Shown here piece by piece: positions 15,855-32,507 of a stretch of 64,000 nucleotides of DNA (its first letter is position 1; each line of letters starts with the position of its first letter). This DNA comes from Pirellulaceae bacterium (lineage in GTDB: Bacteria > Planctomycetota > Planctomycetia > Pirellulales > Pirellulaceae). The DNA is taken from contig BPJU01000008.1 in the NCBI GenBank assembly GCA_026004775.1, forward strand, positions 186,001 through 250,000. The letters run 5' to 3'. The translations under genes and the position numbers were made by a program. A model generated the notes under the pieces. It made no database searches and was not told the DNA's origin. It saw nothing but the letters and a program-made list of their open reading frames with translations.

Positions 15855-16219
15855 ACGATCCTGCGCCGGATGAGCCGCATGATGACCGCTCGACGACGCT
15901 GGCCGAGCTGCGCGCGTGTGTCGAGCAGTTTGTGGCTGAGCGGCACTGGCAAACTTATCATGCGCCGAAGAACCTGGCGATGTCGCTGGCGATCGAGTCG
16001 GCCGAACTGATGGAGCATTTTCAGTGGGTGACGGTGGATGAGTCACGGCACGTGGCGGACGACACTCAGGTGCGCGAAGCGGTGCTGGACGAACTGGCCG
16101 ATGTTTTCTGTTACGTGTTGGCTATGGCCAACGCCTTGAACGCCGATTTGACGCGGGCCTTCCGGCAGAAGATGCGGAAGAACGCCCGCAAATATCCAGC
16201 TCCCGATACGACACTATAA
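15836..16219 (+). CDS. MazG-like nucleotide pyrophosphohydrolase (dCTPase/RS21-C6 type)
   Basis: A 127-residue all-alpha NTP pyrophosphohydrolase that probably hydrolyses dCTP or modified nucleotides. The metal-binding motif is visible as LAIESAELMEHFQW (ExxE) and VLDELADVFCYVLAMAN (ExxD), with the C-terminal RKNARKYP typical of the short MazG/DCTPP1 group. ATG 15836 lies inside the end of the upstream oxidoreductase gene (19-base overlap); longer in-frame extensions run through that gene and are rejected. The 3' end overlaps the convergent DUF1501 gene by six bases. Confidence 0.85.
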   Translation: MGTEILDDPAPDEPHDDRSTTLAELRACVEQFVAERHWQTYHAPKNLAMSLAIESAELMEHFQWVTVDESRHVADDTQVREAVLDELADVFCYVLAMANALNADLTRAFRQKMRKNARKYPAPDTTL

Positions 16220-17521
16220 AACGCCCTGGATCAGTTGGCCGCCGTCGACCAGCTTGATCGGCCGCCCGATGCTGCTCATGTTTTCATGGTCCGGGTCGAT
16301 ACCTAAGGCCGTGAAGATGGTGCGGAATAGATCCGGCACGGTGACCGGCTGGCCGGTGATTTCCACCCCGCCGGCATCGGTCTGGCCGATGGCTTGCCCC
16401 GGACGCACTCCACAGCCGCCCAACACCACGCTGAAAGCTCGCGGGTAGTGGTCGCGCCCCCCTCGAGGGTTGATTCTTGGCGTGCGCCCGAACTCACCCA
16501 TCCACACCACCAGGGTCGACTCCAACAGACCCCGTTGCTCCAGATCCCGCACTAAGGCGGCCATCGGCTGGTCGAGCTGCCCGCACAACGAACGGGAACG
16601 GTTGAAGTTGTCTTCGTGCGTATCCCAGTTGCCCAGTGTCACCTCGACACAGGTGACTCCCGCTTCAACAAGCCGGCGTGCCAGCAGGCAACCACGAGCA
16701 AAGGTCGAATCGCCGTAGGCTTGCCGCACCGACACCGGCTCCCGATCCAACTCGAACACTTGCATCTTGGGGCTGAGGATCATGTCGGTGGCAGCTCGAT
16801 AAATGGCGTGGCGATCTTCTACGAGCCGGCCGCCCACCCGCTCGGCAAACTCGTGATCGGCCTCTTCCAACAGCGCCAACCGCCTCCGCAATCGCTGCTC
16901 GCCCGATGACGGCGTGGCGTTCTGCGGCATCTGGCCCGGGTTGGAGACGACAAACGGGTCGAATTTGACGCCCAGCAGGCCACCGCCACCCAAATCCCGA
17001 TTGCTTTGTCCGATGCGGACGAACGCCGGTAAATCCAGATCGGACGGCGCGAGTTGGTGAGCGACCGAAGCGCCGAGCGTCGGATGCTTGACCGTTGCGG
17101 TGGGCAAGTAACCGGTGTGCAGCAGGTAGGTGGCTCGCGAATGCGTTCCTTCCCGGGCGGTTACCGAGCGCAGCAGGCAAAGTCGATCGAGTACCCCGGC
17201 AACTTGCGGGAGGTTTTCCGAAATCGGGACTCCGGGGATGCGCGTCGGAATCGCTCGGGTTTCGCCACCGTTGGCATGGCCGGGCTTGGGCGTGAACGTT
17301 TCGAATTGGCTCGGCCCGCCCTGCATCCACAACAAGATCAAATGTTTGCCGTTCTTGCGCATCTCCTGGGCATGAGCACTTACCACATGCCCCAAACGCA
17401 ACCCGATGGCCGACGTACCCAGGGCCACCCAACGCAACAGGTCGCGGCGCGCGATACCGTCGCGGCGGCCCAGCCGCACATCCCATTCGTGTATCCATTG
17501 TCCGTTAAGCTGGTGAGCCAT
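16214..17521 (-). CDS. Exported DUF1501 protein
   Basis: A 435-residue planctomycete DUF1501 (alkaline-phosphatase-superfamily-like) protein. A twin-arginine-like leader (GIARRDLLRWVALGTSAIG) is followed by ILLWMQGGPSQFETF (start of the domain), TREGTHSR-type segment, CVEVTLGNWDTHEDNF and VVWMGEFGRTPRINPRGGRDHYPRAF, with metal-type Asp/His residues. ATG 17521 has AGGAG seven bases upstream; an upstream ATG at 17554 is less likely. It lies ~107 bp downstream of a DUF1549/DUF1553 gene on the same strand, the usual pairing. The pair probably works together in the periplasm on an unknown substrate. Confidence 0.9.
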   Translation of the reverse strand: MAHQLNGQWIHEWDVRLGRRDGIARRDLLRWVALGTSAIGLRLGHVVSAHAQEMRKNGKHLILLWMQGGPSQFETFTPKPGHANGGETRAIPTRIPGVPISENLPQVAGVLDRLCLLRSVTAREGTHSRATYLLHTGYLPTATVKHPTLGASVAHQLAPSDLDLPAFVRIGQSNRDLGGGGLLGVKFDPFVVSNPGQMPQNATPSSGEQRLRRRLALLEEADHEFAERVGGRLVEDRHAIYRAATDMILSPKMQVFELDREPVSVRQAYGDSTFARGCLLARRLVEAGVTCVEVTLGNWDTHEDNFNRSRSLCGQLDQPMAALVRDLEQRGLLESTLVVWMGEFGRTPRINPRGGRDHYPRAFSVVLGGCGVRPGQAIGQTDAGGVEITGQPVTVPDLFRTIFTALGIDPDHENMSSIGRPIKLVDGGQLIQGVL

Positions 17522-17628
17522 AATTGGGCTCCTGAATCGTAAGGCAATACCCATCTACATGTATGTGGTCCAAATGTTTGTGGTCCAAGCGGTGGCCGCG
17601 GCCTGTGGTTCGCCCCATAACCAACCCG

Positions 17629-19266
17629 TCATGGCCGGTGAGCGAACTCGGTCGAGTTCAAAAGCACCCACAAAAGATCTTCCCGCCCGGCTTGCTCCGA
17701 CTCGGCTTTCTCGATACAGCGGGTCGCCCACTGTAGCTCGCTTTCGGTGGGAAACCGCGACAGCACGCGCAGGTACAGGTAGCGCACCGCGTCTTCGGTG
17801 CGCGGATATTCAAAAGCGACTCGTCGCAACAGGGGCCCACCGGCAGAAGCGGCTCCCGCGATTTGCCGCGAATTCATCATCGCCAGAACTTGCGGCAACG
17901 TGGTGACAATTTCCTCACGCGGCGTGCTGGGATCGAAGCCGAAAACTTGGTTGAAGGCGAATCGCCCGGCACGAGCCCGCGCCATACCCAGGGGCGGGAC
18001 CCCGCGGGGCATCGGATCCTGGATTCCCAGAGCGGCCAGCAACGACTCGTACAAGACGTCGGCCCGCAGAGGCTGTACGACGTTGGCCGTCATGGGAGGA
18101 GCATCCGGCAACCGCCGTGCACGCCCTTCGCTTTGATACAATTGCGTCGCTGTAATCACGCGCAGCAGCCACTTGATGTCGTAGCCGGACTCGGCGAATT
18201 GCGCGGCCAGGTAATCCAATGTCCGTGGGGCCGTGGGCGTATGGTCCGGCCCCATCTGATCGATCGGCTCATAGAACCCCTCGCCGCAAAGCTCGGCCCA
18301 CATCCGATTGACGAAGGCTTTGGCGAACCACGGATTTTCGGGCGACGTGAGCCAGCGAGCCAGCATGCCTCGCCGCATCGCATCCGAAACGCCCACCGGA
18401 AGCGACTGGCCCGTCACGAACAGCGCCGGCTTCATCAGCGTCCCTCGGGCCTGGGGATCTTCCAGGTCGGGCATGTAGTGCTCCGGAGTCCCCACGAACC
18501 GCACATCGTTGCGTCGCGGGGCAAACCGGCCGTCGTTGACCGTCACCAAAAACGTCGGCTGGTCCCCGCTGCGATCCGGCCTGACAGCAACCCGCGGAAA
18601 GAAAGCCGCCAACTGGTGGAACTGTTCCCGCTTCCAGCGTTCCGACGGGTGATCGTGGCACTGGGCACATTGAATCTGGATGCCCAGAAAAATTCGAGAC
18701 ACCTCGGCCACGATCTCCTCGGGTTTGCCTCCCTGAGCCATGATCAGAGCCGTGGCGCCGTTTTCCCGCACATCGCCACGGGCTGTAATGAACTGCGTGA
18801 CGATTTCATCCCATCTCGTATTGTTGTTGAACGCCTCGGTAAGAAACTGCATCGCGCTGTTGGCCACCACGATGGCCCGTTCTTCGGTGCGGGGGTACAA
18901 GATCACATCCCGCCAGTAGCTGGCCCAGTTCTCGCCGTACTGCGGATCGGCCAACAGCCGTTCCACCAGACGCGCCCGCTTGTCCGCCGATCGGTCCGCC
19001 AGGTAGGCCAACACGTCGTCCGGCGTGGGTGGCTCACCAATAAGGTCCAAAAACACGCGTCGCAGGAATACGGCTTCCTCGGCCGGCCCAGCCAGCTTCC
19101 ACTCCGGCGACGATAGCTCCTCGGCCAACAACTGATCCACCCGTCGAGCCACTTCTTGTGGATCGGCCGCGTCGGATCGGCCAGCCGCCAATAAGGCGGC
19201 AAGCGCCAGGGTTGCCCCCGCCACAAGTAACCAACCCGTTGGAACACGTCGTTCGCGTTCAGGCAT
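17629..19266 (-). CDS. Exported DUF1549-DUF1553 protein (short form)
   Basis: A 545-residue version without the N-terminal cytochrome domain. A signal peptide (GWLLVAGATLALAALLAAG) precedes DUF1549 (RRVFLDLIGEPPTPDDV, LLADPQYGENWASYW) and a CxxCH in IQCAQCHDHPSERW, then DUF1553 (NPWFAKAFVNRMWAELCG, TLPQVLAMMNSRQI). ATG 19266 is preceded by GGAGGAG; a longer frame to 19323 is not needed. It is the upstream partner of the DUF1501 gene at 16214-17521. The single CxxCH suggests possible covalent haem, but this motif is also part of DUF1549 and its haem binding is not proved for the family. Confidence 0.9.
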   Translation of the reverse strand: MPERERRVPTGWLLVAGATLALAALLAAGRSDAADPQEVARRVDQLLAEELSSPEWKLAGPAEEAVFLRRVFLDLIGEPPTPDDVLAYLADRSADKRARLVERLLADPQYGENWASYWRDVILYPRTEERAIVVANSAMQFLTEAFNNNTRWDEIVTQFITARGDVRENGATALIMAQGGKPEEIVAEVSRIFLGIQIQCAQCHDHPSERWKREQFHQLAAFFPRVAVRPDRSGDQPTFLVTVNDGRFAPRRNDVRFVGTPEHYMPDLEDPQARGTLMKPALFVTGQSLPVGVSDAMRRGMLARWLTSPENPWFAKAFVNRMWAELCGEGFYEPIDQMGPDHTPTAPRTLDYLAAQFAESGYDIKWLLRVITATQLYQSEGRARRLPDAPPMTANVVQPLRADVLYESLLAALGIQDPMPRGVPPLGMARARAGRFAFNQVFGFDPSTPREEIVTTLPQVLAMMNSRQIAGAASAGGPLLRRVAFEYPRTEDAVRYLYLRVLSRFPTESELQWATRCIEKAESEQAGREDLLWVLLNSTEFAHRP

Positions 19267-19831
19267 GCTGCTCCTCCGCACACAAAGGCCGCTATAGCTC
19301 GCCTGCATTGCCTGCCCCGTCAAGAAAGCCTACCACAATTTGATTCGCATCAACTTTCCGCCACCAATGTAACCACGACCTCCCACCATTTACTAACCTC
19401 AGTAAAGCCAAAAAGTTTCTTGCGTTCTTGGGTGCGTCTTCCCGTACGGAATATGCGGGCAAGTCCGTTTCTGGCACGCGTGGAACCGTCACGGCCTGGC
19501 CGGTTCCCCTTCCACCGCATCGCCAACGGTCCGCCCCAGAAGGGAAAACCCTCTGGCTGCCCCCGCGCCAAGGAAGGATTGACTTGGGTAAAGCAACTCA
19601 TCACGCGGCAAAAAAGCGGTGCCTAGTTTGGTGTAGAAACCAAACCAATATTCGGGGAAGATTGCTCGAGGCCCAGCTTGTGTGATAATGGCGCTGACAA
19701 GTGCCGGCTTATCGCGGGATCCACCTCGGCAAAATCGGGCAACCGTTTCCCGGATCGATGCTTGATCGATCGTCAGGTTGATTTGGATAACTTGCATCGG
19801 AGTGTTGCCTGCCTAGCGACGGGGTGCAGTA
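19267..19831. other. Gene-free divergent promoter region
   Basis: 565 bp between the minus-strand DUF1549 gene and the plus-strand pseudokinase gene, so it should hold promoters for both. I see one stem-loop, GTTTGGT/ACCAAAC at 19626-19645, and no convincing gene, tRNA or terminator. A phrase AAAAAAGCGGTGCCTAG near 19610 resembles the 5' part of the REP-like units at 4237 but lacks the palindrome. Confidence 0.4.
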
Positions 19832-21496
19832 ATGACCCAATCACGAATCGGCTCGTTCATCCTGGAAGAAAAACTCCCAGGGGCCGGTTGCACCTGGCGG
19901 GCGATCCATGGTCAGCAGCGGGTCGCCGTGGCGCTAAAAGTGTTCGCCGCTGCTTTTGGCACAACTCCCACCATGCGGCAGACGTTTATGGACGAGTGCG
20001 CCACGCTCAAGATGCTCCACCATCGGAGCCTCGTGCGGTGCTTCGGAGGCGGATTCGACGGGCAGCACGCCTACCTGGTTCACGAACTGGTCGAGGGCGA
20101 ATCGCTCAGCCGGCTACTGGAGCGGCGCGGGAGGTTGCCGTGGGAGATGGTGGTCGAGCAATTGCGGCAGGCGGCCGAAGCGTTGGAGTTTCTGCACGAG
20201 CGGGAGCTTTTCCATCTGGCACTCCAGCCCGACAAATGGATGATCACTCACTCCGATTCGGTAAAGCTTCTGGACGTGCGTCCGGCGCGGTTGTCGGGAA
20301 CCTTGTTGGCAGGTTCCGGCGAACGAAGCCTGGAGGCGATGCGGTATTGGGCGCCGGAGCAGTTTTCCGGAACCATCTCGTCTCCGGGCCTGGTCGACAT
20401 TTACGCATTGGGCTGTATTGCCTTTCAGATGCTGACGGGCAAACCTCCCTTTACCGAGACCGAGCCGGAAAGGCTTGCCGAGGCGCATGCCCGCCAACCT
20501 CCGGAACGCGTAGCTCTGCATGTGCTCGACTGTCCGGTCTGGCTGGATGCGCTAGTGAGTCAGATGCTGGAGAAAGATGCCGAGCGGCGAGTGCGCTCAC
20601 CGCGAGCGTTACTGATGGCGCTGGACGAAGCGGAGCGTCACATTGCTCAGGGAACGACCGTAGCCGAACATGCGGCTCGGGGCGTTTCTCCGTTGCGAGC
20701 GCCGGGTGATGCGCGTCAAGCAACCGCCTTGTTGCGCCCGAAGACCAAGCGCCGCCCGGTACGCCCCGCTCGGCAGACGCCGGTATGGGAGCGTGCCTGG
20801 TTCCTGGTGGCGGCGTTGGTGGTACTGATCGGGATCGGAGTGGTGTTGGCGTGGCCACCCAGCGAAGAAAAGCTCTTCCGCCGCGCCGAACAACTGCTCC
20901 AGTCCGACGAGCCGGGTGCCGCTCTGAGGGCTCGTGACGATTATCTGTTGCCGCTGCTGCGCCGCTTTCCGGACGGTAAGTATGCCGAGCAGGCCCGGCA
21001 ATGGCTCGACAAGATCGACATGGACCTGGCCGAGGCTCGTCTGCGCAGCAAGCTGCGGCTGGGGCGACCTCTGGAAAATGAAACCGAACGGCTGCTGGCC
21101 GAAGCCTGGCAATACCGGCAGTTTGGGGACCATGCGTCGGCGGCCGAAAAGTTTCGGGCGATGCTCCAGGTGCTGCCGGACGATAAAGAGAATCGGCCGT
21201 ACCGACTGCTTGCCGAGCGGGAGCTGAAGGCGATCGAACAGCAAGCGTTCGACAACCGGAGTCAATTCCTGATCGAGCGTCTGGCGGATGCCCGGCGGTT
21301 GGCCGACGAGGGGAAACGATCCGAGGCCGAAGCGATTTGGCGCAGCATCATCTCGCTTTACGACGGACAGCCGGAACTCATGGAACTGGTCGAGCAGGCT
21401 CGCGAAGCGCTTCGCCGTGCCGCGGCGGACGCACAGGACGGTGCTCAGCGCGGCGATTCTTCGATCGAGCCCCCCTCATCCCACTCGCCTCCGTAA
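19832..21496 (+). CDS. Membrane-anchored Ser/Thr protein kinase homologue, predicted pseudokinase
   Basis: A 554-residue PknB-type protein: kinase-like domain (about 1-270), Arg-rich linker, one membrane helix (WFLVAALVVLIGIGVVLAW, 323-341) and a TPR-like helical extracytoplasmic part (about 345-540). The ATP-binding Lys is kept (VALKVF, K36), and the APE motif is present (YWAPEQF). However, the catalytic loop HRDLKPxN reads HLALQPDK (H128, A130 in place of the catalytic Asp, Gln for Lys, Lys for Asn) and DFG reads DVR (148-150), while the Gly-rich loop is PGAGCTWRA. Loss of the HRD Asp predicts no phosphotransfer; the protein may bind ATP and act as a scaffold or sensor. The extracytoplasmic region could sense a ligand. 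It is ~130 bp upstream of the amidation/radical-SAM/flavin cassette on the same strand. Confidence 0.8.
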   Translation: MTQSRIGSFILEEKLPGAGCTWRAIHGQQRVAVALKVFAAAFGTTPTMRQTFMDECATLKMLHHRSLVRCFGGGFDGQHAYLVHELVEGESLSRLLERRGRLPWEMVVEQLRQAAEALEFLHERELFHLALQPDKWMITHSDSVKLLDVRPARLSGTLLAGSGERSLEAMRYWAPEQFSGTISSPGLVDIYALGCIAFQMLTGKPPFTETEPERLAEAHARQPPERVALHVLDCPVWLDALVSQMLEKDAERRVRSPRALLMALDEAERHIAQGTTVAEHAARGVSPLRAPGDARQATALLRPKTKRRPVRPARQTPVWERAWFLVAALVVLIGIGVVLAWPPSEEKLFRRAEQLLQSDEPGAALRARDDYLLPLLRRFPDGKYAEQARQWLDKIDMDLAEARLRSKLRLGRPLENETERLLAEAWQYRQFGDHASAAEKFRAMLQVLPDDKENRPYRLLAERELKAIEQQAFDNRSQFLIERLADARRLADEGKRSEAEAIWRSIISLYDGQPELMELVEQAREALRRAAADAQDGAQRGDSSIEPPSSHSPP

Positions 21497-21504
21497 TTGC
21501 GGTG

Positions 21505-21510
21505 TATAAT
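21505..21510 (+). promoter_or_regulatory. Possible -10 element ahead of the AsnB-like cassette
   Basis: A perfect TATAAT hexamer in the gap between the pseudokinase gene and the AsnB-like gene, 117 bp before the latter's start. No good -35 box is seen 16-18 bp upstream, so this is only suggestive that the cassette has its own promoter. Confidence 0.35.
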
Positions 21511-21626
21511 TTGGCTTGTCGCAGTCGAGCGTCTGAGTTCGCGTTTTGCCGGTGATGCGCGGTGGTCCTTCCGAACCGGCTGGGCGCGTGCCATCGGGGG
21601 ACGGCGGTCGTGTGAGGAGACTTTGC

Positions 21627-23036
21627 ATGCAGCGTGATGGTTCGCAACAACTGTTGGATTCCGAGGGCGGTAGCTCAGCCGTCACCGCTTCAGCCGAAAT
21701 GGCATCGGCAGTGCGGTACACGTCCGTGGCCCGATTTGTGGACTTGATGGATCCGGACGCAGATGTGCTGCTCAATACGACGCGGGCCGCAGCCGTGGCC
21801 GCCGTCGCGTCGGGCGATATCCAACGCATCCGCAGTCTGGACGGGCACTTTGCCATTGCCGTACGCTCAGATCGCATCGTGCGGATGGCTCGGTCCCTGG
21901 GCCGCCCCATGCGTTACTTTCTCGCCAAAGAAGCCGACGGACCGTGTCTGGTGGTGGCCGAACGGATCGACCAGATTCGCCGGTGGCTCGAACAGCATGG
22001 CTTGCAGGACCAGTTCCATCCGTCGTACACCCGCATGGTGCCGGCTCATTATCTGGTCGAGTTGCAACTGGTAGGGTGCCCGGATCCGAATCCGCGCTAC
22101 CAGCGTTTTTTCACGCCCCAGTCGGAGCGATTGCCGGCAGACTTGGATGGCATCGGCCGCGCGTATATCGGCACCTTGGCCGATGAAGTGGCTCGCTGGT
22201 TAAAGACCGTCGAGCCGCGAGAACCGATCGGCGTGCTGTTTTCCGGAGGCATCGACAGCGGGTCGGTGCTGTTGGTGCTGTACCATGTGATGCTCACGTC
22301 GGGCATCTCGGCTTCGCGACTGAAGGCTTTCACCCTTTCGGTCGATGACGCCGGACCGGATATCGAACAGGCGTATGAATTCGTGAGGGCCGTCGGATTG
22401 GATTATTTGTGGGAAGTGATACGCGTTCCGGTCGAAGAGGTGCGGGTCGAGGATGCCGTCCGGGCGATCGAAGATTACAAGCCGCTCGATGTACAGGCGG
22501 CCGCCATGACGCTTGCGCTTTGTCGCGGAATCCGCCATCGCTATCCGCAATGGAAATATCTGGTCGATGGCGACGGCGGCGATGAAAACCTGAAAGATTA
22601 TCCGATCGAGGATAACCCGGAACTCACGATCCGCAGCGTCCTCAACAACCGCTTGCTCTATCAAGAAGGTTGGGGCATCGACGCCATCAAGCATTCGCTG
22701 GTCTATTCGGGCGGCCAGAGCCGCGGGCACGTGCGATCGTATGCCCCCCCGCGGTTGCTCGGTTTTCGCAGCTTCAGCCCGTACGCCCTGCCCAATGTCA
22801 TCGACGTTGCCGAACGGATCCCGTTCGTGGAGCTGACCGAGTGGGATCCGCAGCGCCTCTATGCGCTGAAAGGGGAAATCGTGCGCCGTGGGGTGGAGGC
22901 GATCACCGGTATGAAAATGCCGGTTTTCCCGAAGCGGCGATTCCAGCATGGAGCGGCGTCGCATGCAACGGCTCAGCGACTGTTTCCCCGAGAGGAACGA
23001 GCCTACCGGCGTCTGTTCGAGCAGTTGTTTGCGTGA
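21627..23036 (+). CDS. Asparagine-synthetase-like amidoligase lacking the glutaminase Cys
   Basis: A 469-residue protein of the AsnB/beta-lactam synthetase superfamily that would adenylate a carboxylate and join it to an amine or ammonia. The synthetase half has the ATP pyrophosphatase PP-loop LFSGGIDSGSVLL (about 204-216) and YLVDGDGGDENLKD (311-324). The N-terminal half retains the scaffold of the class II glutaminase domain (SLDGHFAIAV, ARSLGRPMRYF) but the protein does not begin Met-Cys: it starts MQRDGSQQLL, so it cannot form the N-terminal nucleophile. This is the state seen in beta-lactam/carbapenam synthetases and lasso-peptide cyclases, and points to a specialised ligase. ATG 21627 follows AGGAG. 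It is the first gene of a tight three-gene set with a radical SAM and an FAD protein. Confidence 0.8.
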   Translation: MQRDGSQQLLDSEGGSSAVTASAEMASAVRYTSVARFVDLMDPDADVLLNTTRAAAVAAVASGDIQRIRSLDGHFAIAVRSDRIVRMARSLGRPMRYFLAKEADGPCLVVAERIDQIRRWLEQHGLQDQFHPSYTRMVPAHYLVELQLVGCPDPNPRYQRFFTPQSERLPADLDGIGRAYIGTLADEVARWLKTVEPREPIGVLFSGGIDSGSVLLVLYHVMLTSGISASRLKAFTLSVDDAGPDIEQAYEFVRAVGLDYLWEVIRVPVEEVRVEDAVRAIEDYKPLDVQAAAMTLALCRGIRHRYPQWKYLVDGDGGDENLKDYPIEDNPELTIRSVLNNRLLYQEGWGIDAIKHSLVYSGGQSRGHVRSYAPPRLLGFRSFSPYALPNVIDVAERIPFVELTEWDPQRLYALKGEIVRRGVEAITGMKMPVFPKRRFQHGAASHATAQRLFPREERAYRRLFEQLFA

Positions 23037-23041
23037 CGTGT

Positions 23042-24007
23042 ATGATGCGCATCCCGCGGCCTGTTACACGCCAGGAGGTTGAGCAATCGCGACCGGCACG
23101 GTTCTCCGTAGACCCGTATCAACCTGTCGGTTGGCTGATAGAAGAAGAATATTCCCGCAACCGGCGCGTGGAAAAAACGGCGGTCGTCTTTTTGGCCAAT
23201 CGCGAATGCCCGCTGCGGTGTGTGATGTGCGACTTGTGGAAACAGACGCTGGTCGGCCGCACGCCGGCCGGCGCGGTGGTGGCCCAATTGGAAGGCGTAC
23301 TGCCTGAACTGCGGGCCGCGACCCAAATCAAACTCTACAACCACGGCAACTTTTTCGACCCCCTGGCTGTGCCGATGGCCGACCGACGGGCGATCGCCCA
23401 GCGGATGGAGGGGTTCCACACGGTGATCGTTGAGAACCATCCGCGATTCTGTGGCCCCGGCTGCGCCGAATTCAGAAGTTGGTTGCCCGAGGCTACGCAA
23501 CTGGAAGTCGCCATGGGGCTGGAAGTGGCCAACGACCTGTGGCTCCGCTGGCTCCACAAACAAATGACGGTCGCCGACTTTTGTCAAGCCGCTCAATGGC
23601 TTGTGCGCCAAGGCATTTTTGTGCGGGCGTTCGTGCTGTTGGGCCTTCCCGGTACCGAAGCCGCAGAATCGTTGCACTGGGCTCTGCGTTCGGTGCGTGA
23701 GGCTTTTCGTGCCGGAGCCGACGTTGTCAGCATTATTCCTTTGCGGTCGGGCAACGGGATTCTGGATCGCTTGGCTGACGAGGGATGGAGGTGGCCGAGC
23801 CGGCTGGTGCTGTTGGAGACGGCACTGTTTCTGGCGCTTCAGGAAAAACAGGGCCGCGTGTTTGCGGACCTGTGGCAGGTGGAGAACTGGGAAGCGTGCC
23901 CGGAGTGCCGCAGCCGGCGGCTGGAGAATCTCTGCTACATGAACAGCACCCAACAACCGTCGGAGCCCGTGGCGTGCCGATGCTCGACACCGATCACGAT
24001 CCCGTGA
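23042..24007 (+). CDS. Radical SAM protein of the cassette, function unknown
   Basis: A 321-residue radical S-adenosylmethionine enzyme. The [4Fe-4S]-binding motif is NRECPLRCVMCDLWK (Cys 56, 60, 63; CxxxCxxC). The following region (IKLYNHGNFFDPLAVP, FVLLGLPGTEAAES) resembles the Elp3-like/TIGR01210 part of the superfamily. The C-terminus has five more cysteines (CPEC at 286-289, Cys298, CRC at 312-314) that might bind a second cluster. Starts six bases after the AsnB-like stop (ATG 23042 or 23045); its 3' end overlaps the FAD gene by 28 bases. Substrate not inferable; by context it works on the same compound or protein as its neighbours. In-frame sequence upstream of 23042 lies inside the AsnB-like gene and is rejected. 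Confidence 0.82.
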   Translation: MMRIPRPVTRQEVEQSRPARFSVDPYQPVGWLIEEEYSRNRRVEKTAVVFLANRECPLRCVMCDLWKQTLVGRTPAGAVVAQLEGVLPELRAATQIKLYNHGNFFDPLAVPMADRRAIAQRMEGFHTVIVENHPRFCGPGCAEFRSWLPEATQLEVAMGLEVANDLWLRWLHKQMTVADFCQAAQWLVRQGIFVRAFVLLGLPGTEAAESLHWALRSVREAFRAGADVVSIIPLRSGNGILDRLADEGWRWPSRLVLLETALFLALQEKQGRVFADLWQVENWEACPECRSRRLENLCYMNSTQQPSEPVACRCSTPITIP

Positions 24008-25512
24008 CGTTTACCCGCAAGCCGCTGGATGTGCTGATTGCCGGCTCCGGATGCGGCGGTAGTCTCCTGGCGTGGATTCTGGCGTCGCAAGGCATGCGCG
24101 TCGCCATGATCGATCCCCAGCCGCATCCGCGGTTCGCCATCGGTGAGTCGTCCACCCCCGTTGCCGACATGATCCTGGCCGACCTGGCGGCCCGTTATCG
24201 GTTGCCCAAGTTGGCGCCCCTTGCACAATACGGCACGTGGTGTCAGGTTTATCCGCAACTGCGTCGCGGTCGCAAACGCGGGTTCAGTTATTTTTTTCAT
24301 GCACCTGGTAAAGCTTTTCAGCCCTCACCGAGCCACACCACCGAACTGTTAGTGGCAGCCAGCTCCGACGATTTTCATTGCGATACTCATTGGTACCGAG
24401 CCGATGTCGATGCGTTCTTGGCGGAGGCCGCTGTGGAGGCGGGAGCGGGATGCATTGCTCCCGCAACGCCGCGGCAGTGTCGATACGCCCGCGACCGGTG
24501 GCAGGTCGTCGTGGAAACTCCAGCTGGCGACCTAGCCTTCCGCAGCCGTTTCCTGGTGGATGCCTCGGCGGGACGGTTCGGAACACGTTTCTTGCAAGCG
24601 GGCGACCGCACCGACTTGCTGCTGAGCCGCTCCGGAGCCGTGTACACTCACCTTCGCAACGTACGGCCGTGGCGGGCGCTGCTGGAAAACTGGGGCGCTC
24701 ACTGCCAGGACCATCCGTTTGATTGCGATGCCGCGGCTTTACACCACGTATTCCCGGGTGGGTGGATGTGGCAGTTGCGCTTCGACCATGGAGTAACGAG
24801 CCTGGGTGTGGCGTGCGAATCCAGCCCGGCAGCATTACCGGGCGCTGGCGGTTGCGAAAAAATCCGATCCTTCCTGGCCCAATACCCCTCCATCGCCGCG
24901 CAGTGCGAGCAAGCGCAGTTGGTCGATCCGCCCGGAGGATGGGTGATTGTCGAGCGACTCCAGCGGCGTGCGGCTCGAGCCACCGGCACCGCGTGGGCCG
25001 CCCTGCCTTCAGCCTTCGCCTTCATCGACCCGCTCCACAGCACCGGCATTGCACACACGCTAAGCGGTGTGGAGCGCCTGGCGCGCATTCTCTTGAGTAC
25101 CGGCACGGACTCAACACAAGTCGAGCAACTTGAACAGTACGAACGGCAATTGGTATCCGAGGTGGCTCTGGTCGATGAACTGGTGTCGGCCGCCTACGCC
25201 AACACCGGAAACTTCTCTCGCTTCATCGCCGCCACCATGCTCTACTTCACCGCAGCCATCCAATACGAATGCCGCAGAAAACAGGGCCTTCAAGAGCAAG
25301 CCTTCCTGTGCGCGGACGATCCGGAATTGTTCCACCGGCTACGAGCAGCCTGCTGCTACCTTCGCGAAACGGCAAGCCGATCCGATGCGAACCAACGCGA
25401 ATCGATCGAAAACGGCTGGGACCGCGTTCGCCAATGGATCGAACCGTACAATACGGTCGGGTTGTTGGATCGCGACATGCGTAATATGTATCGGCATACG
25501 GTTGCGCGGTGA
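23980..25512 (+). CDS. FAD-dependent monooxygenase/halogenase-like protein
   Basis: A 510-residue flavoprotein related to flavin-dependent halogenases and geranylgeranyl-reductase-type enzymes. It has the GxGxxG dinucleotide motif VLIAGSGCGGSLLAW (18-32), the GESSTPVADM segment (55-64) found in halogenases, the mid-protein GGWMWQLRFDHGVTSLGV (260-277) at the position of the halogenase WxWxIP motif, and FIDPLHSTGIAHTLSGVERL (348-367), the flavin-site FIDP segment. WxW is kept but IP is replaced by LR, so true halogenation is uncertain; hydroxylation or reduction is as likely. It overlaps the radical SAM gene by 28 bases, implying co-translation. The start is chosen at ATG 23980, which begins ahead of the flavin fold. 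Confidence 0.8.
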   Translation: MLDTDHDPVTFTRKPLDVLIAGSGCGGSLLAWILASQGMRVAMIDPQPHPRFAIGESSTPVADMILADLAARYRLPKLAPLAQYGTWCQVYPQLRRGRKRGFSYFFHAPGKAFQPSPSHTTELLVAASSDDFHCDTHWYRADVDAFLAEAAVEAGAGCIAPATPRQCRYARDRWQVVVETPAGDLAFRSRFLVDASAGRFGTRFLQAGDRTDLLLSRSGAVYTHLRNVRPWRALLENWGAHCQDHPFDCDAAALHHVFPGGWMWQLRFDHGVTSLGVACESSPAALPGAGGCEKIRSFLAQYPSIAAQCEQAQLVDPPGGWVIVERLQRRAARATGTAWAALPSAFAFIDPLHSTGIAHTLSGVERLARILLSTGTDSTQVEQLEQYERQLVSEVALVDELVSAAYANTGNFSRFIAATMLYFTAAIQYECRRKQGLQEQAFLCADDPELFHRLRAACCYLRETASRSDANQRESIENGWDRVRQWIEPYNTVGLLDRDMRNMYRHTVAR

Positions 25513-25523
25513 TCCGTCTGATC

Positions 25524-25555
25524 GAACAGATCGGTCGGATCCGACCGATCTGTTC
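25524..25555. promoter_or_regulatory. Perfect 32-bp palindrome abutting a promoter
   Basis: The half-site GAACAGATCGGTCGGA (25524-25539) is followed directly by its exact complement (25540-25555), with no spacer. It lies 12 bp after the FAD gene stop and touches the -35 box at 25556. It could be the terminator stem of the upstream cassette (only a poor T-run follows), the operator of the downstream promoter, or both. Confidence 0.7.
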
Positions 25556-25585
25556 TTGACACCGAAGGTGACCCCACCGTACAAT
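25556..25585 (+). promoter_or_regulatory. Sigma-70 promoter of the coiled-coil DUF1549/DUF1553 gene
   Basis: A consensus TTGACA (25556-25561), an 18-bp spacer and TACAAT (25580-25585). The predicted transcript starts near 25592, ~70 bp before the ATG at 25662. A perfect palindrome overlaps its upstream edge. Confidence 0.75.
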
Positions 25586-25661
25586 CCATAAATATGCGTG
25601 GATGCGTCCGCGCACTATCCCACCAGCACTAGCCCACCGTAACCGAAGGGAGAGCTTCCTC

Positions 25662-28295
25662 ATGCGAGGTCCTGCTTGGCTTTCTCCCGGCACTCCGCAT
25701 AGCGGAACGTGGCCGACTGCGGTTAGGCGGATTAGCCAACTGGCGGCAGCATGGCTCTCCGCGTTTACGGCCGCCGTTTTTTGTCAAGAAGCTCCGCCGC
25801 TTCGCGAGCGTATCGATCAACTGGTGGAGTCGGCTTATGTGGGCCAGCCGGCTCGTATGGTAACGGACGCGGAGTTCCTGCGACGTGTGAGTCTTGATTT
25901 GACCGGGCGCATTCCGACGGCCGAAGAAGCGCGTGCCTTTCTGGCCGACACTTCACCAGACAAGCGGCAGCAGTTGGTCGATCGGTTACTGGCCAGCCCG
26001 GCGTTCGTACGGCACATGACCGATACGTTCGACGTGATGTGGATGGAACGCCGGCCCGATAAGTACGTTTCGTCAAGCGATTGGCGCAATTACCTGTTTG
26101 AATCGTTTGCCGCAAACAAGCCGTTGAACGTGTTGATTCGCGAGATTTTGAGCAGTGACGGAACGGATCCGGCCTTGCGGCCGGCCGCCAAGTTCTTCCT
26201 GGATCGCGAAGCCGATGCGAATTTGCTGACACGCGACGTAGGGCGCATGTTCTTCGGCGTCGACCTTCAGTGTGCCCAGTGCCACGATCACCCGCTTATC
26301 GAAAGCTACCTCCAGGCCGACTACTACGGCATTTTTGCATTTTTGAACCGCACCGTCCTGTTTGTCGACCCTAAGGACAACAAGAAAGCCTACCTGGGTG
26401 AGAAGGCCGAAGGTGACGCCAAGTACAAATCGGCATTCACTCAGGAAGAGGGCAGCACTTTGCCGCGCCTGCCGTTCGGGGAAGCGATCGACGATCCGAT
26501 CCTGGCCAAAGAAGCGGTTTATATCGTGAAGCCGGAAAAGAACGTGCGTCCGGTGGCACGTTACAGCCGCCGGTTGCGGCTGGCTGAAGAGGCGACCAGC
26601 GGGAACAATTTGGCTTTCAACCGCAACCTGGCTAACCGGCTGTGGGCGATGGTCTTCGGGCGCGGCCTGGTGGAGCCTGTCGATCTCCATCACCGGGACA
26701 ACCCTCCGGTTCACGCTCAATTGTTGGACCTCTTGGCGGAAGATCTGGTAGCTCATCAATTCGATCTGCGCTATTTCCTGCGTGAATTGGTGTTGTCGCG
26801 AACGTATCAGCGGTCCAGTGAACCGCCCCAACAGTGGGTGGAGTACAGCCGCCAGGCCGAAGCGGTTCTGGTGAGCCTTGAACAAGAGACGCAATCGCTT
26901 CAGCAGGCACATGAGTCGATAGTGGCAGAGCTGGAAAAGCTGCGCAAGGAGCGCTCCTCGCTCTTGGAAGCGATCGAACCGCTGCGGCAGAAGTGGCGTG
27001 AAGCCGAACAGGCGTGGGCCGATGCCGATTGGGCTGTCCAGCAAGCCCAACAAGCCGTGCAGTCCGCGCAGCAAGCTCTTGCTTCCCAGCAGCAGACCCA
27101 CGCCACGCTCGCCGAAGCTCTCGCCTCACTCCAGAAGGCTGTGGCACTGTTGCCCGAAGCGGAGTTGAAGGCGGCGGTCGAAAAGCTCCAGGCGTCGCAG
27201 AAGGCAGCCGAGGAACAGCTCCAGAAACTTGAAAAAGAGTTGGCCGAAAAGCAACAGACCCTTCAAACGGCAACCGAAAAGCGTGCCGCGTTGCAGCCGG
27301 CGCGCGAGCAGGCTCTGGCTGAGCTTCAAAAGGCCCAGGGGCCGCTTGGCGAGCTTGAGACGCAACTGCGCGCCGTGCAGCGATCCGAGATCCAAGCGGG
27401 CGATCGGTTATTGACGGCGAAACGCCGCCTGAAAGATGCCCAATGGCTGGCAAGTCAACGAGGCGGTCTGGAAGCTTACGCCGCCGGTCAAGATCGCTGC
27501 CGGCAATTGGAAAACCAGTTGGCTCGTCTCGATCAAGAACGGGCCCGCCTCCAGCAACAACTGACCGCTACGGCAGCCAGCCCGAACGCAACTTCGGCTG
27601 CGGACGCCGCTCCCGAAGAACTTCAAAAACAACTCGAAAAGCTCGATGCTGAAACCAAACAGTATTCTGAGCAACTCGCTGAGGCTCGACAGGCGGCCCA
27701 GCAGCAGCGCCAAGCGCTCGATGAGCTGCTGGCCCAACTCGACGAGCGCTGGGTGAACCAGTTGGCACTGGCTCCTTTGAAACCGCTTTCGCCCGAGCAA
27801 TTGGCTTGGTCGACGTTGCAAGCCACAGGTGTGCTGGCCAATACGCTGCCGGGAGTCGAGGACGAGGTGAAGAAGAAATCGCCGGAACTGGCCGAGCAAC
27901 CCGAAAAATTACGCGTGGCCGTCGAGCGTGCTCTGGAGGCGAAGTTTGCCGGCGTGATTCGTGAATTTGTCTCGTTGTTCGGTTCCGGTGCCGGGCAACC
28001 ACCCCAATTGTTCTTCGCCACCGTGGACCAGGCACTTTACTTGTCCAACAGCGGCAATGTCACGTCCTGGATCAACCCGTCCGGGAACAACCTGGCGGCA
28101 CGGCTCGTGTCGATCGAGAACCCCGAACAAATCGCCGAGGAACTTTACCTGAGCGTGTTGACACGTTTTCCCGACCCGCAGGAGCGGCAGTGGGTTGTGG
28201 CCACGCTGTCGCAGGCCGGCGAGCAGAAAAAGCAGGTGATTCGCGACATGATTTGGGCTTTGTTAAGTTCGGCAGAATTTCGGTTTTGTCCCTGA
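25662..28295 (+). CDS. Exported DUF1549-DUF1553 protein with a long coiled-coil insert
   Basis: An 877-residue exported protein. Signal region (LAAAWLSAFTAAVFCQE), DUF1549 (RRVSLDLTGRIPTAEEA, LLASPAFVRHM) with CxxCH in LQCAQCHDHPLIE, then the first part of DUF1553 (FNRNLANRLWAMVFGRGLVEP, FLRELVLSRTYQRSSEP). At that point, where family members normally go straight on to the next helices, ~300 residues rich in Gln, Ala, Glu and Leu form a long heptad-like coiled coil (roughly 26850-27750), before DUF1553-like sequence resumes (NSGNVTSWI, YLSVLTRFPDPQER). It starts at ATG 25662 behind GGGAG. It heads a set with DUF1501 (133 bp on) and a WD40 gene. The insert could drive oligomerisation or span to a partner. 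Confidence 0.88.
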   Translation: MRGPAWLSPGTPHSGTWPTAVRRISQLAAAWLSAFTAAVFCQEAPPLRERIDQLVESAYVGQPARMVTDAEFLRRVSLDLTGRIPTAEEARAFLADTSPDKRQQLVDRLLASPAFVRHMTDTFDVMWMERRPDKYVSSSDWRNYLFESFAANKPLNVLIREILSSDGTDPALRPAAKFFLDREADANLLTRDVGRMFFGVDLQCAQCHDHPLIESYLQADYYGIFAFLNRTVLFVDPKDNKKAYLGEKAEGDAKYKSAFTQEEGSTLPRLPFGEAIDDPILAKEAVYIVKPEKNVRPVARYSRRLRLAEEATSGNNLAFNRNLANRLWAMVFGRGLVEPVDLHHRDNPPVHAQLLDLLAEDLVAHQFDLRYFLRELVLSRTYQRSSEPPQQWVEYSRQAEAVLVSLEQETQSLQQAHESIVAELEKLRKERSSLLEAIEPLRQKWREAEQAWADADWAVQQAQQAVQSAQQALASQQQTHATLAEALASLQKAVALLPEAELKAAVEKLQASQKAAEEQLQKLEKELAEKQQTLQTATEKRAALQPAREQALAELQKAQGPLGELETQLRAVQRSEIQAGDRLLTAKRRLKDAQWLASQRGGLEAYAAGQDRCRQLENQLARLDQERARLQQQLTATAASPNATSAADAAPEELQKQLEKLDAETKQYSEQLAEARQAAQQQRQALDELLAQLDERWVNQLALAPLKPLSPEQLAWSTLQATGVLANTLPGVEDEVKKKSPELAEQPEKLRVAVERALEAKFAGVIREFVSLFGSGAGQPPQLFFATVDQALYLSNSGNVTSWINPSGNNLAARLVSIENPEQIAEELYLSVLTRFPDPQERQWVVATLSQAGEQKKQVIRDMIWALLSSAEFRFCP

Positions 28296-28344
28296 GTTTT
28301 GTCCCTGATTCGTTAATCACAAGTCCGAAACCGGGAGACTGATA

Positions 28345-28365
28345 GCCTGTTGCAACGAAACAGGC
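28345..28365 (+). other. Intergenic stem-loop
   Basis: GCCTGTT/AACAGGC around a 7-nt loop in the 133-bp gap between the DUF1553 and DUF1501 genes. No T-run follows, so it is more likely an mRNA-processing or stability hairpin than a terminator. Confidence 0.35.
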
Positions 28366-28428
28366 GTTGCCGAAGGTAGACAACAGAGGGCCGTTCGAAG
28401 AGCACCGCAAGGTGACAAGGAGTCCGCC

Positions 28429-29718
28429 ATGAAGTGCACATATGCTTGTGGAAGCCAGGAACATTTGTTGGCACGGCGTACGTTTCTGGGCGGGGTAGTG
28501 GCCGGCGTCGGTGCGGTAGTGGGAGGTTTGGGTGCGCTGGCGACCCCGTCGGCTGCTCGCCAATTGGCTCGCGACGGAAAACGCGTACTGGTCATCAACA
28601 TGCATGGCGGCTTGAGCCAGTTGGAAAGTTGGGATCCGAAACCCGGAGCGCCGACCGGAGGCCCGTTCCGAGCCATCCCGACGTCGGTGCCGGGGATTCA
28701 CATCAGCGAATTGTTGCCGAAGACAGCCCAAGTAATGCACCACTTGGCCCTGGTGCGTGGCGTGAACACCAGCGAAGACGATCACGGCAAAGGGATCTAC
28801 TTGATGTTGCATGGCCGGCGGCAGACTCCGGCGGCCGACTATCCGGAAATTGGAGCCGTGGTGGCGAAAGCCCTGGAACCGCTGGGCGGCGATGCGCTCC
28901 CGGGACACATCAAGATCACCTCGGGTGGCGGCGGCCGCGGCAACGATGCGGCTTATCTGGGACCTCGCTACGCCAGCGTGCGACTCGGGGATGGCAAACC
29001 CCCCAGCCATTCCAGCCGTCCAGACGGTATGAGTGATGACGATGAGGCGCGCCGCCAGCAATTCCGCCGCCTGGTCAATGAACATTTCTTGAGCCGGCGG
29101 CGCACGGCGATGACCGACCTTTATACCTACAGTTATGAACAAGCACTCCAGCTCATGGAACAGCGGCAGATCTTCGACGTGTCGCTGGAGCCCCAAAAAG
29201 ACCAGGAACGCTATGGCGACCATGCCTTCGGGCGACATTGCCTGCTGGCTCGCCGACTGCTGGAACACGGCATCACGTTTGTGCAAGTGTCTCACTCGAA
29301 CTACGACACGCACAACGAGAACTTCCGGTTCCACTACGAACAGATGGGCGAATTCGACGGGCCGTTCGCAACGCTCATTTCCGACCTGGCCGATCGAGGC
29401 ATGCTCGATTCGACCCTGGTAGTGGTACTGAGCGAGTTCGGCCGCACACCGAACATCAACCAATACTACGGGCGTGATCATTGGAGTCGCGCCTGGTCGG
29501 TGTGCCTGGCTGGCGCCAAGATCGCTCGAGGAGCGGTTCTGGGCAAGACCAATGAAAACGGCACCGCCGTCGTCGATCACCAGGTCGATCATGCCCAACT
29601 GTTCCACACCTACCTCCAGGCTGTCGGCATCGACTCGTTCGCCACCATTGACGTGGCGGGCCGCCCCGTGCCGCTTGCCGATCCGGCGGCAGCGCCGATC
29701 AAGGAGTTGTTGGCTTAA
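28429..29718 (+). CDS. Tat-exported DUF1501 protein
   Basis: A 429-residue DUF1501 protein, partner of the preceding DUF1549/1553 gene. A twin-arginine leader (LARRTFLGGVVAGVGAVVGG) is followed by VLVINMHGGLSQLESWDPKPG, SEDDHGKGIYLMLHGR, FVQVSHSNYDTHNENFRFHY and VVVLSEFGRTPNINQYYGRDHW, the family's likely metal-binding Asp/His positions. ATG 28429 has AGGAG seven bases upstream. Likely periplasmic; the reaction is unknown, although the fold is related to alkaline phosphatase/sulfatase enzymes. Confidence 0.92.
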   Translation: MKCTYACGSQEHLLARRTFLGGVVAGVGAVVGGLGALATPSAARQLARDGKRVLVINMHGGLSQLESWDPKPGAPTGGPFRAIPTSVPGIHISELLPKTAQVMHHLALVRGVNTSEDDHGKGIYLMLHGRRQTPAADYPEIGAVVAKALEPLGGDALPGHIKITSGGGGRGNDAAYLGPRYASVRLGDGKPPSHSSRPDGMSDDDEARRQQFRRLVNEHFLSRRRTAMTDLYTYSYEQALQLMEQRQIFDVSLEPQKDQERYGDHAFGRHCLLARRLLEHGITFVQVSHSNYDTHNENFRFHYEQMGEFDGPFATLISDLADRGMLDSTLVVVLSEFGRTPNINQYYGRDHWSRAWSVCLAGAKIARGAVLGKTNENGTAVVDHQVDHAQLFHTYLQAVGIDSFATIDVAGRPVPLADPAAAPIKELLA

Positions 29719-30901: not shown

Positions 30902-32404
30902 CTATGGCGAACTTTCCGATGTCCGGGGGCGGGCAATACCGGCGACGATTCTTCGCACCACATGCCACATCGCCGGTCCCAGGATCATCGCCAGCGTCAA
31001 TATCATGAGCACCAGACTCTCCGGGCGCTCCCATGCGGCCTGGAATCGCCCATCGGATTTGATCAGCCCCTGTCGAAGATTCAGCTCCAGAATCGGTTGC
31101 AAAATCATTCCCAATATGAACGGCGCTACCGGGACCTGGTGCCGATCAAACCAAAGCCCCAGCAGGCCGAAACCGAACATCACCATCACATGGAACCATT
31201 TTTGTTCAATGGCATACGCCCCGACTACGCAAAACACTACTACGGCGCTCATCACCAAACTGTGTGGTAGTCGGATAAATAGTCGGAATCCCAGAATTCC
31301 TATCATTCCGGCTGGTATAAGAAAAAGTTGTGTTAGAAATGCTATAGCAAGCAACAAGTGTAGCTGATGGATATTCTCATGGAAAAGATTCGGGCCGGGA
31401 CGGATGTTATACATCAACATCGCCCCGACCACAATCGCGGTTACGGCGTCACCTGGGATACCGAAGACCAGTGCGGGAATCCAAGCGCCGGCCACGGCGG
31501 CATTATTGGCGCTGGTCGGCGCCACGACTCCTTCCCAGCATCCCTGGCCGAATTGTTGGGCGCGGCGCGACAAGCGCTTCGCCAGGCCGTAGCTGACCCA
31601 TGCCGCCACGTCAGCTCCGGCTCCCGGCAGAGCCCCGATCAGGGTTCCCAGCAGTGAGGATTGCAGGATCAGCCGGGGATGGGCAAGCACGGTGCGCAAA
31701 GCACGGCTCGATGCCGAGCGGATTTCCAAGCGGGCGTCGGGGCGGCGGGCGAGCCGGTGGCTTGCCGAGCGGAACACCTCGGCCAGGCCGAATAAGCCGA
31801 TCATCGCAGGAATAAACCCCAGCCCTCCAAAAAGCTCGGTGCGTCCCCACGTATAGCGCTCGACGGCCGCCACTTCATCCCAGCCCACGGTGCTGGCCAG
31901 TACACCCAACGCGGCAGCCGCCATTCCCTTCCAAGCCTGGCCGGGGGTAAGTACCGCGCTGAGGCTCAAACCGAATACGCCCAACCAGAAGTATTCAAAG
32001 CTGCTGAAGCGCAGGGCCCATCGAGCCAATTGCGGCGCCAGCAGCGCCAGCAGCCCCACACCCACCAGACCTCCAATAGCCGAACAGAACAGGTTCGTCA
32101 GAAGCACCGGCGCACCATGTCCTTGCCGCTGCAATTCATAAGCATCCAACGTAGCCGCAGCCGAGGCCGGCGTTCCAGGAATCCGAAGCAACGTGGCAGG
32201 TATGTCGCCCGCAAAAATTGCCGTGAAACTTACACCCAATATCACCGCCAGCCCCGCCATCGCGGGAAGGTGAAACGTCACCGGCAACAAAATCGCCACC
32301 GCCATCGTGGCCGTAAGCCCCGGCGTGCTCCCCACGAGAATGCCGAATGCCATTCCCAAAAGCCACGGAACCCAGATTTCGGGGCGAGCCAGCTCGTGCC
32401 ACAT
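30902..32404 (-). CDS. tctA: Tripartite tricarboxylate transporter, large permease (TctA)
   Basis: A 500-residue integral membrane permease of the TTT family that moves tri- or dicarboxylates using a solute-binding protein. Hallmarks are GILVGSTPGLTATMAVAILLP near the N-terminus and the internal copies FAGDIPATLLRIPGTPASAA and ALPGAGADVAAWVSY, plus about a dozen membrane helices. Last gene of the minus-strand run sirtuin-tctC-tctB-tctA. Start ATG 32404 lies ~100 bp after tctB with a poor ribosome site, so tctA may need coupling or its own signal. Confidence 0.93.
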   Translation of the reverse strand: MWHELARPEIWVPWLLGMAFGILVGSTPGLTATMAVAILLPVTFHLPAMAGLAVILGVSFTAIFAGDIPATLLRIPGTPASAAATLDAYELQRQGHGAPVLLTNLFCSAIGGLVGVGLLALLAPQLARWALRFSSFEYFWLGVFGLSLSAVLTPGQAWKGMAAAALGVLASTVGWDEVAAVERYTWGRTELFGGLGFIPAMIGLFGLAEVFRSASHRLARRPDARLEIRSASSRALRTVLAHPRLILQSSLLGTLIGALPGAGADVAAWVSYGLAKRLSRRAQQFGQGCWEGVVAPTSANNAAVAGAWIPALVFGIPGDAVTAIVVGAMLMYNIRPGPNLFHENIHQLHLLLAIAFLTQLFLIPAGMIGILGFRLFIRLPHSLVMSAVVVFCVVGAYAIEQKWFHVMVMFGFGLLGLWFDRHQVPVAPFILGMILQPILELNLRQGLIKSDGRFQAAWERPESLVLMILTLAMILGPAMWHVVRRIVAGIARPRTSESSP

Positions 32405-32507
32405 CGTTCGTCTATTCTTCGGTTCGCATCCTCGTCAAAGTAGCGGCACACCTAAGCTACCTTGCTTCAATACTCTGCCACTGCCCGCTGTCGCCCCACC
32501 CCGCCGG

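Follow-up and report, generated by a model that had tools for sequence, protein, structure and literature searches.

In the maturation of quinohemoprotein amine dehydrogenase (QHNDH), the protein to be exported is first processed in the cytosol by a radical S-adenosylmethionine (rSAM) enzyme and a halogenase-like flavoprotein; the latter, QhpG, dihydroxylates a peptidyl Trp in that compartment, according to excerpts of the report (PMC7876137). Two further systems offer partial parallels, likewise as given in excerpts: the use of lysine as amine donor with RaSEA, the archaeosine rSAM enzyme, as partner, which is a precedent for a ligase/rSAM pair (PMC11298593), and asparagine synthetase-like enzymes acting on a ribosomal peptide, namely, the nitrile synthetase PesC and TsrC (PMC13060819). 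The subject of this analysis is a cassette of three consecutive genes (the trio) in a 64,000-nucleotide stretch of DNA (the window; positions 186,001 to 250,000 of contig BPJU01000008.1, which is contig 8 of the 6.1-Mb Pirellulaceae assembly GCA_026004775.1, labeled G000 here). The trio encodes an AsnB-like ligase, an rSAM protein, and a flavoprotein. The three genes almost certainly form one conserved module, and their partner is very probably a large exported protein, here called the GSCP protein, whose gene lies on another contig; that this membrane-anchored protein is a dedicated partner and, most likely, the substrate of the module is a combined reading that we regard as evenly balanced between true and false.

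All three genes lie on the plus strand. The first (21627-23036) encodes a putative AsnB-like ATP-dependent ligase that lacks the N-terminal catalytic Cys and carries the PP-loop SGGIDS; the second (23042-24007) encodes an rSAM protein with a CX3CX2C motif and a distant relationship to RaSEA (TIGR01210, below cut-off); and the third (23980-25512) encodes a flavin adenine dinucleotide (FAD)-dependent flavoprotein of the PltM/tetracycline 7-halogenase group that is also QhpG-like, in which the active-site Lys, K99, is kept and the motif WxWxIP has become WxWxLR. These genes, together with a kinase-like gene upstream, were located exactly where a preliminary description made from the letters alone had placed them. 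Of the spacings given there, the 28-bp overlap between the rSAM and flavoprotein genes and the 130 bp between the kinase-like and AsnB-like genes were reproduced, and the gap between the AsnB-like and rSAM genes was corrected from 6 to 5 bp. By a first-start rule the AsnB-like frame opens at a TTG at 21546, and the ATG at 21627 is preceded by GAGGAG. Pfam scores were 48 bits for Asn_synthase, 42 bits for Trp_halogenase, 98 bits for Pkinase (the kinase-like protein), and 21 bits for Radical_SAM, the last falling short of its cut-off of 29.5. The curated NCBIfam models for asparagine synthase (40 of 267 bits), RaSEA (63 of 212), and QhpG (63 of 240) all scored so far below cut-off that the trio enzymes cannot be named by them.

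A genome scan of the GTDB with the rSAM protein yielded 47 loci, which were assigned to Planctomycetota, Acidobacteriota, Verrucomicrobiota, Bacteroidetes/Balneolaceae, Chthonomonadaceae, and one Nevskia. The trio was contiguous and in the same order in 21 of these loci, and all three genes were nearby in 4 more; the remainder had AsnB-like and rSAM genes (10 loci), rSAM and FAD genes (7 loci), or the rSAM gene alone (5 loci), with several lying at contig ends. Among 60 relatives profiled with thresholds of at least 128 bits (rSAM) and at least 256 bits (FAD), each of the three genes was present in 25 genomes, and 23 genomes had all three. The misfits were G014, with the rSAM gene at a contig end together with FAD; G036, with only a diverged AsnB-like gene; G040, without FAD; and G009, with FAD only. 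In the window's phylum, represented by 392 genomes, the AsnB-like gene (E ≤ 1e-60) was found in 22 genomes and the rSAM gene (E ≤ 1e-30) in the identical 22; a FAD protein above 480 bits was found in 21 of these 22 (the exception being G422) and in 0 of the 370 others, with weaker relatives of 213 to 334 bits in five. The genes were in some cases unlinked and nevertheless kept: they occupied three contigs each in G273 and G146, and the FAD gene of G128 lay 308 kb away. Because the genes are often nonadjacent, linkage alone does not explain their co-inheritance. The association was far beyond chance by Fisher tests, which ignore kinship. The homologues were not scattered without a conserved neighborhood, the outcome that the preliminary description had named as fatal to the cassette idea; the set is kept across several phyla, and its comparative distribution argues strongly for a single module. 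A search for plasmid carriage in 72,556 records gave no match for the AsnB-like protein and only three weak partial matches for the rSAM protein.

Two groups of loci depart from the common layout. In L053, L063, L067, and L074, of which L053 and L074 are assigned to Chthonomonadaceae, the AsnB-like and rSAM genes are together and the FAD gene is not adjacent; a gene of about 299 residues recurs near all four and reads like what we take to be a phytanoyl-CoA dioxygenase. In the Verrucomicrobiota loci L055, L056, L059 to L062, L068, and L075 to L077, several have rSAM, or rSAM and FAD, apart from the AsnB-like gene.

Clustering of neighbor genes over 110 fetched loci, in which most clusters were without annotation, yielded the GSCP protein as the one outsider that recurred across distant groups. 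It has about 1,060 to 1,260 residues, with FG-GAP and partial UnbV_ASPIC domains; TPR repeats were reported in three of four large examples scanned and not in this genome's copy. Its last approximately 450 residues form a domain that opens with the motif GSCP and had no significant Pfam match in the three examples scanned. The protein is sometimes followed by an FG-GAP/UnbV_ASPIC protein of about 600 residues. In this genome it is encoded on the minus strand of another contig (G000:C2, about 471795-475493), and its N terminus reads as a membrane anchor. GSCP genes were present in 11 of the 110 fetched loci, comprising two in Acidobacteriota, three in Gemmataceae, three in Phycisphaerae, one in Verrucomicrobiota, and two in the window's own family (G013 and G390). 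In L048, L050, L052, L071, and L072, the gene follows FAD on the same strand at a distance of 0 to 63 bp; in L136, the two genes lie tail to tail; and in the remaining five loci they are 1.0 to 4.6 kb apart. The Gemmata locus L048 has the five-gene order AsnB-rSAM-FAD-GSCP protein-UnbV protein.

The association between the GSCP protein and the trio was quantified in whole genomes with a GSCP-domain profile (A5). Among the 60 relatives, the 25 genomes with a match of at least 447 bits were exactly those with the rSAM gene, the next best match being 376 bits; matches at E ≤ 1e-10 were found in 34, of which 25 have rSAM. Among the 392 genomes, matches above 440 bits occurred in all 22 trio genomes (all above 475 bits) versus 5 of the 370 others, and a further 105 of the others had lower-scoring relatives. 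The domain itself is widespread, with matches at E ≤ 1e-40 in 132 of the 392 genomes, some of which encode several copies. All 22 trio genomes fall in two families, within which the high-scoring GSCP protein was found in 22 of 22 trio-bearing versus 3 of 14 trio-less genomes (Fisher 6e-7). Of the 47 rSAM loci, all but L034 and L064 were followed to their genomes, and of these 45 genomes, 43 had a GSCP match at E ≤ 1e-10, and 38 reached at least 417 bits. In the phylum to which L041 (Acidobacteriaceae) belongs, a sample of 84 genomes gave a base rate of 26 genomes at E ≤ 1e-10 and 7 (8%) above 440 bits; of the six acidobacterial high-scoring cases besides the seed, G541 has the trio nearby.

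Several observations weigh against a dedicated partnership. The A5 profile was built from nine trio-adjacent proteins, and the same profile defines what counts as high scoring; relatedness inflates all of the P values, and the Fisher values ignore kinship. High-scoring GSCP proteins occurred without the trio in 5 of the 27 such genomes of the phylum (G302, G323, G079, G083, and G418), and five of the six further acidobacterial high scorers showed no trio within the fetched stretch of 3 to 19.5 kb. Conversely, two of the 45 rSAM-reached genomes (G478 and G480) had no GSCP match, and four or more had only a partial one. Finally, the GSCP protein is exported, and the enzymes look cytosolic. The resulting dependence is one-sided, in that the trio rarely occurs without the GSCP protein and the GSCP protein often occurs without the trio. 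A client relation predicts such a pattern, although a shared pathway would fit it too. As in a maturation system, the putative client was found to be co-inherited with the enzymes and, in some genomes, co-encoded with them.

Alternatively, the trio may make a small molecule from common metabolites by ligation, a radical step, and halogenation or hydroxylation, with the GSCP protein binding, exporting, sensing, or using the product. Such a pathway would account for the enzyme families, which are typical of tailoring (a Cys-less AsnB-like protein with beta-lactam synthetase as its top fold match, and a flavoprotein with the PltM-group Lys kept in 29 of 29), and a compound that is made and then exported would suit enzymes that stay in the cytosol and a partner that leaves it. 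However, no recurrent biosynthetic core gene was recognized near the trio across distant groups, where most neighbor clusters were without annotation, and the trio is rarely found without the GSCP protein (0 of 22 and 2 of 45 genomes), which itself often lacks the trio. We consider the small-molecule pathway rather unlikely, albeit the strongest of the alternatives. The preliminary description had suggested that the set may make or modify a small molecule or peptide, which is still conceivable; the enzyme set is real, and the evidence favors as its partner a large exported protein whose gene is on another contig.

The predicted properties of the three enzymes bear on how such a protein might be modified. 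In none of 52 AsnB-like rows (51 distinct) is a possible start codon followed by Cys, the conserved core and the 60 codons ahead of it having been covered, which confirms the loss of the N-terminal Cys that had been noticed earlier. The protein thus differs from the glutamine-dependent asparagine synthetases of TIGR01536 in that residue and in score (40 versus 267 bits curated), and it belongs to the PP-loop ATPase superfamily PF00733 (48 bits versus a cut-off of 21), with SGG.DS in 28 of 28 members. An acidic residue at position 316 (26 D and 2 E) and K436 are likewise present in 28 of 28. A structure prediction, which the preliminary description had recommended, gave an AlphaFold model (mean pLDDT, 84.6) whose best Foldseek match was beta-lactam synthetase (E = 1.8e-13), followed by asparagine synthetase, the predicted fold again being Cys-less. 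Relatives are 44 to 68% identical to the window protein in the alignments. The AsnB homologues of the beta-lactam synthetase, carbapenam synthetase, and lasso cyclase types share the AsnB fold without the N-terminal Cys; the window group differs from the beta-lactam synthetase type in its identity of only 16 to 19% and in the acidic D316, a position that, by a mapping made without three-dimensional alignment, we take to be that of the Tyr in the beta-lactam synthetase Tyr/Glu catalytic dyad. The fold and the absent Cys fit a ligase that would activate a carboxylate with ATP for attack by a nucleophile other than glutamine-derived ammonia.

The rSAM protein has CX3CX2C in 32 of 32 members and at least three additional Cys residues in the C-terminal part in 25 of 32. 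RaSEA (TIGR01210) was matched by 32 of 32 members and was the best match of the window protein, at 63 bits versus a curated cut-off of 212. The AlphaFold model (pLDDT, 93.9) showed the general rSAM fold, with a best E value of 1.8e-6, and relatives are 35 to 47% identical to the window protein. The family thus resembles RaSEA in its uniform match to the model and differs from it in that the window protein is far under the cut-off and bacterial. This resemblance raises the alternative that the AsnB-like/rSAM pair works as in archaeosine synthesis, with an amino acid (e.g., lysine) attached as amine donor and a RaSEA-like C-N cleavage leaving an amide; the outcome would be glutamine-free amidation of a protein, tRNA, or metabolite. 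Consistent with this, the N-terminal Cys with which glutamine would be hydrolyzed is absent from the AsnB-like proteins (0 of 52 rows), and 10 of the 47 loci, some at contig ends, have the AsnB-like and rSAM genes without FAD nearby; ArcS/RaSEA use lysine in this way, as excerpts of the report describe (PMC11298593). The low score of the window rSAM protein argues against it, and a tRNA role would leave the flavoprotein and the GSCP protein unexplained. As an account of the whole system the archaeosine-like route is improbable, although it can be a submechanism of GSCP protein modification.

For the flavoprotein, the nearest solved relatives were PltM and tetracycline 7-halogenase, with profile E values of 1e-83 to 1e-78 over 400 residues. 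The likeness to these enzymes consists of the profile match and the invariant catalytic-type Lys, since the halogenase active-site residue (K99), aligned with that of PltM, is present in 29 of 29 flavoproteins; the difference is that WxWxIP is relaxed in the trio flavoproteins. Over the positions of this motif, which we take to be characteristic of FAD-dependent halogenases, W occurred in 29, W in 26, I in 2, and P in 2 of the 29 proteins, the commonest residues at the last two being L (27) and R (22), so the motif is not kept here. QhpG was matched at E ≤ 0.001 by 29 of 29 aligned flavoproteins, the window protein remaining below the curated score (63 versus 240 bits), and relatives are 27 to 41% identical to the window protein. 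Halogenation and hydroxylation are both possible chemistries for the putative enzyme.

Compared with the Qhp system (QhpD rSAM enzyme, QhpG, and QhpE), to which excerpts of the literature point, the trio is alike in pairing an rSAM protein with a halogenase-fold flavoprotein, here on a putative protein client. It differs in that its flavoprotein falls below the QhpG cut-off (63 versus 240 bits) and an AsnB-like ligase is present; in that its rSAM protein matches RaSEA, with no QhpD model among the nine families matched; and in that its partner is an FG-GAP protein of about 1,200 residues. PesC and TsrC, again as excerpted, are alike in being AsnB-like peptide modifiers and differ in that no short precursor was found for the trio and the partners are not the same. 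The preliminary description had not recognized the combination as a described pathway, and no paper describing it was found among the matches listed, which consisted of titles and the beginnings of abstracts, with subscription journals mostly outside the coverage.

That the GSCP protein is the substrate of the trio has, in our judgment, slightly less than an even chance. In such a scheme, the enzymes would modify it in the cytosol before export. The AsnB-like ligase would convert a carboxylate via an adenylate into an amide or isopeptide, the nucleophile being something other than ammonia from glutamine; the RaSEA-like rSAM enzyme would use radical chemistry to cleave or form a C-N or C-C bond; and an aromatic side chain, for which W824 and W869 are candidates, would be hydroxylated or halogenated by the halogenase/QhpG-like flavoprotein. 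The outcome could be a redox cofactor that is cross-linked or derived from the protein. Planctomycetes, Acidobacteria, and their neighbors have many large exported proteins to which no role has been assigned, and the present comparison links one of them to three uncharacterized enzyme subfamilies and singles out a domain and residues within it. If the GSCP protein is the substrate, the trio would represent a new multienzyme protein-maturation system across several phyla; if it is not, a widespread new pathway with a defined partner would remain.

The two candidate residues emerged from a residue comparison of 84 GSCP-domain proteins of genomes with the trio or rSAM gene and 45 others (33 from trio-less genomes and 12 second copies), the 33 being part of those found, at the higher-scoring end. 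Trp52 and Trp97 of the aligned domain, which correspond to W824 and W869 of the G000 protein, were, together with a Pro, the three most discriminating columns, with Trp in 87% and 86% versus 9%. The pair co-varies: both Trp residues were present in 75 proteins, neither in 50 (mostly Gly and Arg instead), and only one in 2. The Cys of the GSCP motif did not discriminate, being present in 56 of 56 and 13 of 13. In the G000 protein, W824 and W869 are near this invariant Cys (GSC805P). This distribution suggests that the Trp pair may be a site of enzyme action, the plain alternative being that it is a subfamily feature. Exceptions argue against the former: ten trio-genome proteins with neither Trp residue, all from Verrucomicrobiota with rSAM present; both Trp residues in 4 of the 33 proteins from trio-less genomes; and both in at least four of five acidobacterial high scorers without the trio nearby and in one low scorer. 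The pair was therefore rejected as a strict mark of the trio, being weakened by the Verrucomicrobiota, trio-less, and acidobacterial exceptions. Nine of the ten Trp-less Verrucomicrobiota genomes have the AsnB-like gene, FAD, or both on the rSAM contig, and among the Verrucomicrobiota loci listed above, the GSCP proteins that could be classified were Trp-less, so that in this phylum the client or the chemistry of the module may differ. It is an improbable proposal that the Trp pair (W824/W869) forms the core of a new cross-link or protein-derived cofactor which the trio installs in the GSCP domain. If true, this would be an unrecognized counterpart of the tryptophylquinone systems, in a large exported propeller protein and in several phyla.

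An ordinary ribosomally synthesized and posttranslationally modified peptide (RiPP) pathway, with an overlooked small precursor peptide encoded near the cassette, would also employ such enzymes, given that a combination of AsnB-like, rSAM, and FAD proteins is RiPP-like in general. The conserved short precursor gene that defines these pathways was not seen in the cassette gaps and flanks. No convincing small precursor open reading frame was found at the positions suggested by the preliminary description: 24 open stretches of at least 15 residues, taken from the gaps within the cassette and on either side of it, had no convincing counterpart in related loci (two matches; best E, 0.022). The 600-bp flanks gave 10 matching pairs upstream (54 loci) and 16 downstream (31 loci), which, as far as discernible, represented close relatives, the GSCP gene, or a DUF1549 neighbor common to three loci, including the window. 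A RiPP pathway of this kind is highly unlikely.

The kinase-like gene (19832-21496, plus strand; Pkinase, 98 bits) encodes a membrane pseudokinase in which HLALQP replaces HRDLKP, with loss of the catalytic Asp. It had been drawn into the cassette as a possible reader of the product; it adjoins the trio in only 2 of the 60 genomes (G000 and G025), on different sides, and is probably a neighbor outside the module. A relative above 290 bits was present in 14 of the 60 genomes, comprising 11 of 25 AsnB-bearing genomes versus 3 of 35 others (Fisher 0.002), a value that shows how far relatedness alone can reach. A role as sensor of the product was rejected, the link being weaker than that of the GSCP protein (24 of 25 versus 1 of 35) and adjacency occurring only twice. 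These genomes are rich in kinases, with 15 to 150 candidates each, and in 7 of the 110 fetched loci (raw count) a kinase-like gene lay no more than 3 kb from a trio gene. Aldehyde dehydrogenase and sulfatase clusters, named from reading the sequences, lay within 3 kb in 7 and 4 loci, respectively.

Beyond the last gene, the 32-nucleotide palindrome at 25524-25555 that had been proposed to close the cassette is indeed perfect, and it is the only perfect inverted repeat with arms of at least 12 and a loop of at most 8 in the 64 kb. It could be a terminator or an operator and marks the cassette boundary; directly after it (25524-25585 in all) comes a sigma-70-like promoter (11 of 12 matches), oriented toward the next gene. 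On either side of the cassette (16214-19323 and 25602-29718) lie pairs of DUF1501 and DUF1549/DUF1553 genes, and such a pair also adjoins this genome's GSCP-protein gene (L201, 11633-15783). These families, together with the named relatives, point to Planctomycetota as the phylum of the window. In 12 loci, a raw count for a many-copy family, a DUF1549-type gene was located at most 3 kb from trio genes; the pairs beside both the cassette and the GSCP gene may reflect chance, given that the families are many-copy. The DUF1549/DUF1553 protein encoded at 25602-28295 contains an extended segment rich in Glu, Gln, and Ala that resembles a coiled coil; it lies inside or behind a partial DUF1553 domain (profile positions 1 to 144 of 244). 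Further downstream, on the minus strand at 30902-34222, lie TctA and TctC genes of a tripartite tricarboxylate transporter.

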